A stretch of 64,000 nucleotides of DNA from Alphaproteobacteria bacterium (GTDB lineage: Bacteria > Pseudomonadota > Alphaproteobacteria > Micavibrionales > UBA2020). Positions 25,894 through 58,140 of this stretch are shown here, one piece after another (position 1 is the first letter of the stretch; every line of letters begins with the position of its first letter). The notes below the pieces were generated by a model. It saw nothing but the letters and a program-made list of their open reading frames with translations. It did not search any database and was not told the DNA's origin. Made by a program: the position numbers and the translations under genes. The DNA is taken from assembly GCA_016124645.1 (NCBI GenBank), contig WGNE01000010.1:1-64000 (forward strand), read 5' to 3'.

Positions 25894-25969
25894 CGTCATG
25901 CCCGTTTTGCGCGGGCATCCGGTTTGCGGCGCCAATAAAACCGGACCCCCGCGCAAGGCGGGGGTCGCG
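25894..25969. repeat. Element A: paired inverted hairpin repeat (REPIN/MITE-like), empty
   Basis: CGTCATGCCCGTTTTGCGCGGGCATCCGG (25894-25922), 18-nt spacer, CCGGACCCCCGCGCAAGGCGGGGGTCGCG (25941-25969). Confidence 0.85.
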
Positions 25970-32446: not shown

Positions 32447-32540
32447 CGCCATGCCCGCCTTGGGCGGGCATCCGGCAAGCCGTCAAGTGACATGACGCGC
32501 CGACGCGCTTTCCAGACTCCCGCGCAAGGCGGGGGTGGCG
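32447..32540. repeat. Element B: paired inverted hairpin repeat (REPIN/MITE-like), empty
   Basis: CGCCATGCCCGCCTTGGGCGGGCATCCGG (32447-32475), 36-nt spacer, CCAGACTCCCGCGCAAGGCGGGGGTGGCG (32512-32540). Confidence 0.85.
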
Positions 32541-53614: not shown

Positions 53615-54991
53615 ATGTCCATTCAGATACTCATGCCCGCCCTTTCGCCCACGATGACAGAAGGCAAGCTTGCCAAGTGGGTCAAGAAGGAAGGCGACGA
53701 AATCAAGGCCGGCACCGTCATCGCCGAGATCGAGACCGACAAGGCGACGATGGAGGTCGAGGCCGTGGATGAAGGCATTCTCGGCAAGATCCTCGTGCCC
53801 GAGGGGACCGAGGGCGTCGCCGTCAACACGCCCATCGCCGTGCTGCTCGAAGACGGCGAAAGCGCCGCCGACGTGAAGTCCGAAGCTGCGGCACCCGCTG
53901 CCGCGCCCGCCGCCGCCGAAGCGCCCGTCGCAGAGCCGTCGTGCCATCCGCAATCGGCTCCGCCCGCCGCCGCGCCCGTGGCGCAGGAAAAGGACTGGAC
54001 CGGCCCCACCGTCACACTGACCGTGCGCGAAGCTTTGCGCGACGCGATGGCGGAAGAAATGCGCAACGACCCTGACGTGTTTGTCATGGGCGAGGAAGTC
54101 GCGGAATACCAAGGCGCCTATAAAGTCACACAAGGGTTGCTGCAGGAATTCGGCGACAAGCGCGTCATCGACACGCCGATCACCGAATACGGTTTCGCCG
54201 GCATCGCCGTCGGGGCCGCCTTCTCGGGCCTCAAGCCCGTCACGGAATTCATGACGTGGAATTTCGCCATGCAGGCCATCGACCATATCATCAACTCCGC
54301 CGCCAAGACGCTTTACATGGCGGGCGGGCAGCTGGGCTGCCCCATCGTGTTCCGCGGCCCGAACGGGGCGGCGTCGCGCGTGGGCGCGCAGCACTCGCAG
54401 TGCTACGCCAGCTGGTACGCGCATGTGCCGGGGCTGAAGGTCATCGCGCCCTGGTCATCGGCGGATGCGAAGGGGCTTTTGAAAGCCGCCATCCGCGACC
54501 CCAACCCGGTCGTCTGCCTCGAGAACGAGATCATGTACGGCCAGTCCTTCGAGGTGCCGACGGACCCGGACTTCATCCTGCCCATCGGCCGCGCCAAGAT
54601 CGAGCGGGCGGGGACGGACGTGACCATCACCGCTTTCTCGCGCATGGTCGGCGTCGCCCTTCAGGCGGCGGAGGAACTGGCCGCGCAGGGCATCAGCGCG
54701 GAGGTCATCAACCTTCGCACCCTGCGCCCGCTGGATACCGAAACCATCGTCGAGAGCGTGAAGAAGACCAACCGCCTCGTCTCCGTGGAGGAAGGCTGGC
54801 ACGTCGCGGGCATCGGTTCGGAAATGGCCGCGATCATGATGGAACAGTGCTTCGATTACCTCGATGCGCCCGTCACCCGCGTCTATGGCGCGGACGTTCC
54901 CATGCCCTACGCCGCCAACCTCGAAAAACTGGCGCTGCCGCAGGTCGAACATATCGTCGATGCAGCGAAGAAGGTGTCCTATGCCGCATAA
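53615..54991 (+). CDS. pdhB: pyruvate dehydrogenase E1 component subunit beta with N-terminal lipoyl domain
   Basis: N-terminal [44 protein letters not shown], then [37 protein letters not shown]. Confidence 0.95.
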
Positions 54992-56273
54992 TGTCCTCAT
55001 GCCCGCCCTGTCGCCCACGATGACCGAGGGCAAGCTCGCCAAATGGCTGAAAAAGGAAGGCGACGAGATCAAGGCCGGCACCGTCATCGCCGAGATCGAG
55101 ACCGACAAGGCGACGATGGAAGTCGAAGCCGTGGAGGAAGGCACGCTCGCCAAGATCCTCGTGCCCGCGGGCACGGAAGGCGTGGCCGTGAATACCCTCA
55201 TCGCCGTGCTGCTGGAAGAGGGGGAGGACGCCTCCGCCCTGAAAAACATCGGTGCGGGCGGCGCGCCCAAGACGGTGACGCCCGCCAACCAGCCCTCGGC
55301 CGAGCCCTCGAAGCCCGCACCCAGCATGGCGGTGGCGCAAAAAGCCGCGCCCGCGCCGGTATCGGCCACGGGTGGACGCATCTTCGCGAGCCCGCTGGCC
55401 AAACGGATTGCAAAAGAGCGCGGCATCGACCTTTCGACCGTCAAGGGTTCCGGCCCGCACGGGCGCATCGTCGTGACGGATCTGGACAAGGCCAAAGCAG
55501 GGGCGGCTCCCGTCGCGGGCGCACCCGCAACGCGCGCACCTGTCGCGCCCTCCGGCCCCGGCGCGCAGGCGCTGGCGGATGCTTACGGCATTCCTTACAG
55601 CCTCGTGCCGAACTCCGGCGTGCGCAAGGTCATCGCCCGCCGCCTTGGCGAGGCGAAGCAGACCGTGCCGCATTTCTACTTAAGCGTGGACATCGACCTC
55701 GACGCGCTTTTGAAGCTGCGCAAGGAGCTGAACGATTCCGCCGAGGGGTTCAAGATATCGGTCAACGATTTCGTCATCAAGGCCACCGCCGTCGCGCTCG
55801 AGAAATACCCGGCCGCGAACGTTTCGTGGACGGATGAAAACATCGTGCAGTACGAGCGCGCGGATGTTTCCGTGGCGGTCGCGACCGAAAACGGGCTCAT
55901 CACCCCCATCATCAAGGACGCGGCGAACAAGAGCCTGAAGGTCATCTCCAACGAGATGAAGGTTCTGGCCGCCAAGGCCCGCGACGGCAAGCTGAAGCCC
56001 GAGGAATTCCAGGGCGGGACGATTTCCGTCTCCAACCTCGGCATGTTCGGCATCCGCGAATTCGCCGCCATCGTCAACCCGCCGCAGGGGGCCATCCTTG
56101 CCGTCGGCGCGGGCGAGCAGCGCGCGGTGGTGAAGGACGGCCATCTCGCCGTCGCCACGCAGATGACCGTGACCATGTCCACCGACCACCGCTGCATCGA
56201 CGGCGCGGTCGGCGCGGAATACCTGCAGGTCTTCAAGAAGCTGCTTGAAAGCCCGATGAGTTTGATCCTTTAA
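54981..56273 (+). CDS. pdhC: pyruvate dehydrogenase E2, dihydrolipoamide acetyltransferase
   Basis: [27 protein letters not shown] lipoyl domain; [31 protein letters not shown]3-binding; [17 protein letters not shown] catalytic. Confidence 0.95.
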
Positions 56274-56277
56274 ATCG

Positions 56278-56356
56278 CGCCATCCCCGCGAAGGCGGGGA
56301 TCCGGCCCGATGATTAAAATAAAAAAGTCCAGACCCGCGCCTGCGCGGGGGTGGCG
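56278..56356. repeat. Element C: paired inverted hairpin repeat (REPIN/MITE-like), empty, between pdhC and lpd
   Basis: CGCCATCCCCGCGAAGGCGGGGATCCGG (56278-56305), 23-nt spacer, CCAGACCCGCGCCTGCGCGGGGGTGGCG (56329-56356). Confidence 0.85.
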
Positions 56357-56367
56357 GAGGAGGGAAA

Positions 56368-57771
56368 ATGTCCGAACAAACTTTTGACATCGTCGTCATC
56401 GGCGCCGGTCCCGGCGGGTACGTCGCTGCCATCCGCGCGGCGCAGCTGGGGATGAAGGTCGCCATCGTGGAGCGCGAGCATCTGGGCGGCATCTGCCTGA
56501 ACTGGGGCTGCATCCCGACCAAGGCGCTGCTGCGCTGCTCGGAGATCAACCACCTTTTGCACAACCTCGACGCCTTCGGCTTCAAGGCTGAAAAAGTCAG
56601 CTTCGACTTCAAGAAAATCGTCGAGCGTTCGCGCAAGGTCGCGGCGCAGCTGTCGGGCGGCATCAAGCACCTGATGAAGAAGAACAAGGTCACCGTGTTC
56701 GACGGTTCCGGCAAGCTGCTGGGCAAGGGCAAAATCGCCGTCACGGACAAGGACGGCAAGCCGGTCGCGGACCTGAAATCGCCGCATATCATCATCGCCA
56801 CCGGCGCGCGCGCCCGCGTCCTGCCGGGGCTGGAGCCGGACGGCAAGCTGGTCTGGACCTACAAGGAAGCGATGACGCCGGAGGCCATGCCGAAATCACT
56901 GCTGGTCGTCGGCTCCGGCGCCATCGGCATCGAGTTCGCCAGCTTCTACCGCAACATGGGCGCGGAGGTCACGGTCGTGGAGGTCATGGACCGCGTGCTG
57001 CCCGTGGAAGACGCGGATATTTCCGCCTTCGCGCGCAAGGCCTTCGAGAAGCAGGGCATGAAGATCATGACCTCCGCCAAGGTCGTCAAGCTGGACAAAT
57101 CCGCAGACAGCGTGACCGCGCATGTCGAGGTGGGGGGCAAGACGGAGAAGATCACCGTCGATCGCGTCATCTCCGCCGTCGGCATCGCCGCCAATACCGA
57201 AAACCTCGGCCTTGAAAACACCAAGGTCAAGCTGGACCGCGGGCATATCGTGGTGAACCAGTGGCTGGAAACGGGCGAGCCCGGCGTCTATGCCATCGGC
57301 GACGTCGTCGCGGGCCCGTGGCTGGCGCACAAGGCGAGCCACGAGGGAGTCATCTGCGTCGAGAAGATCAAGGGCGTGAACGACGTCCACCCGATGAAGA
57401 CCGAGAACATTCCCGGCTGCACCTATTGCATGCCGCAGGTCGCCTCCGTTGGCCTGACCGAAGCGAAGGCGAAGGAGAAGGGCTATCAGGTCAAGGTCGG
57501 CAAGTTCCCCTTCATCGGCAACGGCAAGGCCAGCGCGCTGGGCGAACCGGAAGGTTTGGTCAAGACCGTCTTCGACGCCAAGACCGGCGAATTGCTGGGC
57601 GCACATATGGTCGGCGCGGAAGTGACGGAAATGATTCAGGGCTACGGCATCGCCAAGACGCTGGAGACGACCGAGGTCGAGCTGATGCACGCCATCTTCC
57701 CGCACCCCACGCTCTCGGAAATGATGCATGAATCCGTGCTGGACGCCTACGGCAAGGTCATCCATATGTGA
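56368..57771 (+). CDS. lpdA: dihydrolipoyl dehydrogenase
   Basis: VIGAGPGGYVAAIRAAQLGMKVAIVE, GGICLNWGCIPTKALL, HPTLSEMMHESVLDAYG. Confidence 0.96.
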   Translation: MSEQTFDIVVIGAGPGGYVAAIRAAQLGMKVAIVEREHLGGICLNWGCIPTKALLRCSEINHLLHNLDAFGFKAEKVSFDFKKIVERSRKVAAQLSGGIKHLMKKNKVTVFDGSGKLLGKGKIAVTDKDGKPVADLKSPHIIIATGARARVLPGLEPDGKLVWTYKEAMTPEAMPKSLLVVGSGAIGIEFASFYRNMGAEVTVVEVMDRVLPVEDADISAFARKAFEKQGMKIMTSAKVVKLDKSADSVTAHVEVGGKTEKITVDRVISAVGIAANTENLGLENTKVKLDRGHIVVNQWLETGEPGVYAIGDVVAGPWLAHKASHEGVICVEKIKGVNDVHPMKTENIPGCTYCMPQVASVGLTEAKAKEKGYQVKVGKFPFIGNGKASALGEPEGLVKTVFDAKTGELLGAHMVGAEVTEMIQGYGIAKTLETTEVELMHAIFPHPTLSEMMHESVLDAYGKVIHM

Positions 57772-57778
57772 TGACCCC

Positions 57779-58140
57779 CGTCATTCCGGCGAAAGCCGGA
57801 ATCCAGAAGGCCTAACTGCATGGAAAAACAGTATTTTGTGTATATTCTGGCCAGCAAACGGAACGGTACCCTTTACGTGGGCGTGACGCGCGACCTTGTA
57901 AAAAGGGTCTATGAGCATAAAAATGGGCTGGTCGAAGGCTTCACAAAGAAATATGGTGTAAAGCAACTGGTGCATTATGAAACATTCGGAGAGGCCGCGA
58001 ACGCCATTCACCGCGAAAATGCCTCAAGGAATGGAAGCGCCGCTGGAAAACGGATTTGATCGAAAAAGGGAAACCGGACTGGAAAGATTTGTACAGCGGC
58101 ATAGCTATGTAACTGGATCCCGGCTTTCGCCGGGATGACG
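57779..58140. mobile_element. Element D: inverted hairpin-repeat pair enclosing a GIY-YIG nuclease gene
   Basis: left CGTCATTCCGGCGAAAGCCGGAATCCAG (57779-57806), right CTGGATCCCGGCTTTCGCCGGGATGACG (58113-58140) inverted; same terminal architecture as elements A-C; interior filled by a GIY-YIG ORF. Mobility is inferred, not shown. Confidence 0.7.
57820..58112 (+). pseudogene. small GIY-YIG nuclease (UPF0213/COG2827-like), apparently frameshifted
   Basis: MEKQYFVYILASKRNGTLYVGVTRDLVKRVYEHKNGLVEGFTKKYGVKQLVHYETFGEAANAIHRE then frame shift; the -1 frame gives CLKEWKRRWKTDLIEKGKPDWKDLYSGIAM* ending at 58112. The intact annotated frame stops at 58059. Confidence 0.85.

Follow-up and report, generated by a model that had tools for sequence, protein, structure and literature searches.

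A repeat dimer between pdhC and lpd

In the 64,000-nt stretch of alphaproteobacterial DNA analyzed here (the window), pdhC (dihydrolipoamide acetyltransferase, E2; 54864–56273, + strand), which has orthologues in related genomes, is followed by lpd (dihydrolipoamide dehydrogenase, E3; 56368–57771, + strand). The original prediction had placed an empty palindromic element, here called element C, in the gap between the two genes, and both its position and its extent proved to be correct to the base. The pdhC stop codon TAA (56271–56273) is followed by ATCG and then by the left arm of the element (CGCCATCCCCGCGAAGGCGGGGATCCGG, 56278–56305, + strand), while the right arm (unit CGCCACCCCCGCGCAGGCGCGGGTCTGG, 56329–56356, – strand) ends in GTGGCG at 56356, directly before the lpd ribosome-binding site GAGGAGGG (56357–56364, + strand). 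The whole gap is thus filled, from 4 nt after the pdhC stop codon up to the ribosome-binding site that precedes the ATG of lpd at 56368. The arms are 28 nt each, are 82% complementary and enclose a 23-nt, A+T-rich spacer devoid of an ORF (56306–56328). The left arm has an 8-bp stem with all eight positions paired, a GAAG loop and a CCGG tail; in the right arm seven of eight positions pair (one mismatch) and the loop and tail are GCAG and CTGG. Each arm is itself a hairpin, which makes element C a dimer of REPs and no plain inverted repeat. As a head-to-head pair of CGTC-type REP hairpins it belongs to an already known kind of repeat. In 100 shuffles no match to either arm with up to three mismatches was obtained. 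The predicted RNA fold of the element has an energy of -47.5 kcal/mol (z = -3.7 versus shuffles) and the DNA fold a z of -5.1. A search of the 64,000-nt window against Rfam gave no match.

Element C is one of many such units. A generic arm pattern matched 59 times in the 2.85-Mb draft genome as opposed to once for the reversed control pattern, and 12 further places resembling element C were found at E ≤ 1e-3. Most pattern matches form facing pairs of about 80 nt, and 16 distinct dimers were read. The window contains three empty dimers, namely element C and two others of its subfamily, A (25894–25969, tail CCGG) and B (32447–32540, tails CCGG/CTGG), in addition to one filled unit, element D. 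The stems covary: 22 arms gave 27 double-change cells compared with 6.6 after shuffling, and stem positions were paired in 97.7% of cases versus 82.6% in shuffles. The tags of 50 sister arms, element D included, are mostly CGTC or TGTC; element C carries the variant CGCC at both outer sides.

These arms are the CGTC-tagged REPs surveyed by Di Nocera et al. (2013; PMC3733652), albeit with subfamily differences. Like the surveyed repeats, whose unpaired tag is CGTC, TGTC or CCTC, they mostly have a CGTC/TGTC tag, together with an 8–9-bp stem starting with A-T, a 4–5-nt loop and a short unpaired tail. They are scattered in large numbers between genes, mainly as head-to-head dimers and close after stop codons as was noted in the survey, and mostly in alphaproteobacteria. 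The stem and the loops of element C agree with this description. It departs from typical units in its CGCC tags and in its CCGG/CTGG tails in place of CCA, which other arms of the genome possess; since the CCA tail was described for "most" units only (PMC3733652), the deviating tail is a subfamily trait and no ground for exclusion. The likeness to enterobacterial REP sequences proposed originally is right in kind, but the superfamily here is the CGTC one: the tags are CGCC, CGTC or TGTC and not the GTAG of REPs served by RAYT transposases. The outer flanks of the arms, in this genome and in the phylum-wide set described below, are poor in G with a pyrimidine at position -1 (86% in the phylum set), possibly a target preference. 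Seen from the far side, a G-poor flank becomes purine-rich, as would suit insertion directly ahead of a ribosome-binding site.

It had also been suggested that the hairpins serve the pyruvate dehydrogenase operon as a signal for mRNA stability or attenuation. Strong hairpins indeed lie exactly between pdhC and lpd and adjoin the ribosome-binding site, and the junction harbors REP dimers in some other genomes as well: the relatives G014 and G004 have similar dimers with clearly different arms, and in two Bradyrhizobium loci (L129, L135) the CGTC-type dimer comes from a further arm family (GTCATTGCGAG...). Such recurrence is, however, also predicted by a shared target preference, and most orthologous junctions have no element. 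The gap is plain and short in G005 and G008, the genes overlap in six genomes of genus g4, and the element is likewise absent from G001, so that a conserved leader is not what we see. The VOC-type ORF in the G001 gap is not followed by a REP. Attenuation found no backing either: neither a terminator nor a promoter was detected on the sense strand at element C, where a G+C-rich hairpin followed by a T run is lacking; the only terminator-like site there is on the opposite strand, and such sites are no more numerous in the region than in shuffles. The absence of the element from the junction in many relatives together with the lack of a sense-strand terminator leaves an operon function unsupported. 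As the same units moreover occupy dozens of unrelated places, we regard it as very improbable that element C is kept for regulation of this operon, although a local effect on the operon could be compatible with an origin from a mobile element.

GIY-YIG genes between inverted arms

The designation of element C as empty was justified, because a cargo-bearing relative lies immediately downstream of lpd. Element D (57779–58140) is a filled version of the dimer. Its left arm (CGTCATTCCGGCGAAAGCCGGAATCCAG, 57779–57806, + strand) starts 7 nt after the lpd stop codon, its right arm (CTGGATCCCGGCTTTCGCCGGGATGACG, 58113–58140, – strand) faces it, and both enclose a reading frame for a GIY-YIG nuclease (PF01541; 57820–58112, + strand) that is frameshifted near its 3' part, with matches in two frames (57820–58029 and 58014–58106). 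At the same junction in G001 and G011 (L233, L235) we found an empty CGTC dimer 2 nt after the lpd stop codon. A Pfam search of the genome revealed four GIY-YIG genes, in element D and on contigs C52, C11 and C65, and inverted CGTC-type arms are present around or beside all four. The gene on C52 is framed by CGTCATTCCCGCGAAAGCGGGAATCCA arms with 96% complementarity, that on C11 resides between sufB and sufC within divergent arms (L024, 1440–1847), and the left arm of the C65 gene is damaged. A GIY-YIG element at sufB–sufC was also seen on a plasmid of Azospirillum lipoferum (L245), in the order sufB-dimer-GIY-YIG-dimer-sufC; the shared location reflects either an old common residence or a repeated target.

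The encoded proteins are single-domain proteins of 95–98 aa, and intact ones are those of contig C52 and of the Azospirillum lipoferum plasmid (WP_014249537.1), among others. Family members matched PF01541 with 55.9–61 bits (cut-off 22.6), and Y8, Y19, G21, R29, H33, E66 and N85, comprising the catalytic Tyr, Tyr, Arg, His, Glu and Asn residues, are invariant in 28 proteins. An AlphaFold2 model (pLDDT 92) has UPF0213 proteins and Slx1 as nearest solved folds, and the family resembles UPF0213/COG2827-type single-domain GIY-YIG proteins (1zg2) and Slx1 in its fold and in having all catalytic residues. Slx1 is a nuclease that cuts branched DNA. Given this relationship, cutting of a cruciform or of the hairpin arms is a natural proposal for what the enzyme might do.

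For the wider distribution, 35 related genomes were searched with a profile built from the three intact proteins, which yielded 46 strong and 19 weak genes. The 160 nt upstream of each gene were then compared with the reverse complement of the 160 nt downstream, and a score of at least 12 was taken as a match (99% of shuffles stay below about 11). Matching inverted flanks were present at 32 of 45 strong family genes and at none of the 19 weak ones, i.e. GIY-YIG proteins of the same genomes outside the subfamily (Fisher p = 8e-8). In eight of the 13 failures the upstream arm is reduced to a truncated tail and a complete REP dimer follows the gene, and most of the others possess GTCATTGCGAG- or GTCATCCTGAG-type arms that were missed by the score. 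The flanks are hence not always one simple facing pair, as about eight genes with truncated tail and downstream dimer make clear. When one-sided dimers are counted, no family member in the set of relatives lies far from arms.

The association extends across Pseudomonadota, where 240 of 398 genomes gave a match. Inverted flanks matched at 70 of 88 sampled loci; among the controls, 11 of 172 windows taken within these loci and 74 of 600 pairs of mismatched flanks did so (6–12%). That a gene's own flanks match while mismatched pairs rarely do indicates that arms are alike within an element and different between elements. A strict detector for tagged hairpins on both sides recognized 19 of 45 loci in the relatives and 36 of 88 in the phylum sample, with 0/19, 0/300 and 0/84 in the controls. 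In a plasmid collection, 12 of 14 inspected loci had inverted CGTC-type arms, among them loci from Azospirillum, Planktothrix, Spirosoma and Neisseria, the latter with dRS3-type arms.

Filled, empty and passenger-bearing units

The relation of filled to empty units is clearest in G014. This genome has two GIY-YIG units of about 472 nt that are 81% identical and sit in unrelated surroundings, their homology stopping at CTGTCA on one side and at TGACATT on the other. Their ends of about 47 nt (TGTCATTCCCGCGAANGCGGGAATCCAGTACCGTGGTTATAA...) are also found on six empty units of 119–120 nt and on four units (L356, L357, L361, L362) that enclose other DNA without GIY-YIG, three of them with ORFs of 158, 220 and 375 aa. 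GIY-YIG is accordingly not the only cargo. Judged from these sequences, the set has the appearance of an autonomous element with its MITEs and passengers: as in MITEs and their parent insertion sequences, terminal inverted repeats, here the extended ends, are common to filled, empty and passenger-bearing units. Unlike in such systems, there is no DDE transposase and no target duplication was found. In the flanks read, neither a recognizable target-site duplication nor a clean pre-insertion site was present, and no precise insertion paired with its pre-insertion target was seen.

Orthologous sites gave a mixed picture. Shinella orthologues have no element, in a gap too diverged to place a boundary, while Sinorhizobium and Rhizobium orthologues retain the GIY-YIG gene. 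The sole well-aligned orthologous site is that on Sphingobium plasmids, where four strain types have a filled element, TYG64 and TYG74 have one palindrome instead (L263, TomTYG64; L261, TomTYG74; tag at both ends) and TYG72 has neither. The TYG64 palindrome CGTCACCCCGGGTCAAGCCCGGGGTGACG consists of the two outer arm halves and is possibly a deletion product or a target form. As the stem halves are direct repeats, the short state can be explained by deletion; insertion into a palindrome would explain it equally well, and the site does not decide between the two.

The number of arms per genome follows that of the nuclease genes. In correlations uncorrected for phylogeny, arms and family genes gave a rho of 0.63 across the 35 genomes and of 0.80 within the family (p = 7e-5; 0.77 allowing for genome size), compared with 0.10 for arms and Y1 transposases. 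Arm type and nuclease type are also linked. Arms with a GG-type tail accompany only nucleases of one clade (SH-aLRT 97) that includes the C65 gene; on the nuclease tree the tail type changes twice versus 6.0 times when shuffled (0/500), and a single member of the clade, L169, has a mixed tail. Having GG tails, element C is best seen as a dependant of the C65 type.

A candidate enzyme for CGTC REPs

Few repeats are as common in bacterial genomes as CGTC REPs. For these repeats, with Neisseria dRS3 and Rickettsia RPE-4/RPE-6 among them, the 2013 survey stated that they "apparently lack a dedicated transposase" (PMC3733652). The full copies described here do contain an enzyme gene, also beside dRS3-type arms of Neisseria (L244), and in our search of open-access texts none was found that links GIY-YIG with REP, dRS3 or CGTC repeats. 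Element C is probably a non-autonomous representative of palindromic mobile elements that end in head-to-head CGTC REPs and carry GIY-YIG in their full copies. The best-supported reading makes this nuclease a strong candidate for the mobilizer, mobility itself being inferred.

A full copy consists of ends of the element C type around a single gene for a one-domain GIY-YIG nuclease of about 97 aa. The nuclease would recognize hairpins or a cruciform formed by its own arms and nick at the CGTC tags, from where copying of the arm-to-arm unit would start. New copies would land at sites that are G-poor/pyrimidine on one side and purine-rich on the other, in many cases after a stop codon and ahead of the ribosome-binding site of the following gene, and empty units would be moved in trans. 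GIY-YIG enzymes are not known to join strands, so a host step would be needed. Several observations speak against this explanation: neither a precise insertion nor a target duplication was seen; G001 and G015 have 36–38 arms and no detected family gene, G001 being 99% complete; the units of G014 have other cargo besides; and the nuclease frame of element D is broken by a frameshift.

The units work like REPIN/RAYT systems, i.e. GTAG REPs with TnpA_REP, in that both combine hairpin dimers with an excess of non-autonomous copies and with a nuclease gene of low copy number that the same hairpins flank; the enzyme here is, however, GIY-YIG and not of the HUH/Y1 type, and the tag is CGTC instead of GTAG. 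A RAYT-type tyrosine transposase might nevertheless mobilize the CGTC repeats in trans with GIY-YIG as a passenger, as the genome encodes one REP-associated tyrosine transposase (NF047646, 81.6 bits; contig C28, L022, 1132–1869). This gene, the only RAYT of the genome, is without arms around it, a Y1 transposase occurs in just eight of the 35 relatives and is missing from G004, G016 and G002 despite 235, 135 and 70 arms, respectively, and Y1 numbers do not follow arm numbers. The survey of 2013 likewise encountered no RAYT flanked by CGTC units (PMC3733652). The idea is disfavored, and we give it hardly any credence.

More weight, though still clearly the lesser share, goes to the view of the nuclease as a homing-type parasite of REP dimers that spread by other means: it would cut empty dimers and be copied into them, and element C would count as a homing site still vacant. 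GIY-YIG is a classical fold of homing endonucleases (PMC1564403), with which the present family shares the nuclease domain and selfish spread, the bare palindrome at the Sphingobium site where relatives have the filled element would suit an unoccupied site, and arms without the gene in G001 and G015 would be expected. Yet whole arm-to-arm units occur in unrelated surroundings, the homology between them stopping at the tags, arm type tracks the nuclease clade, arm number tracks gene number, and in the relatives no member was found far from arms once one-sided dimers are counted. Neither intron nor intein nor NUMOD domains are involved, in contrast to GIY-YIG homing endonucleases, and the flanks are hairpin inverted repeats. 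We therefore consider homing unlikely and prefer the nuclease as mobilizer of the units.

It is probable, if slightly less so than the placement of element C itself, that these units form a new class of bacterial transposable element with CGTC REP hairpin ends, moved by a structure-selective GIY-YIG nuclease of about 97 aa and distributed across Pseudomonadota, with cases also in Cyanobacteria and Bacteroidota. The CGTC REP superfamily, to which dRS3 and RPE-4/6 belong, would thereby gain the enzyme it has lacked, and its dimers without cargo, element C among them, would be a MITE population. The association offers a candidate answer to the gap stated in the literature on these repeats (PMC3733652), and with a small, conserved and intact nuclease inside full-length copies the open transposase question becomes a simple bench test. 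If the reading is true, GIY-YIG would be added to the few enzyme folds behind bacterial DNA mobility, and a function would be assigned to many small genes that currently bear the annotation "GIY-YIG nuclease family protein".
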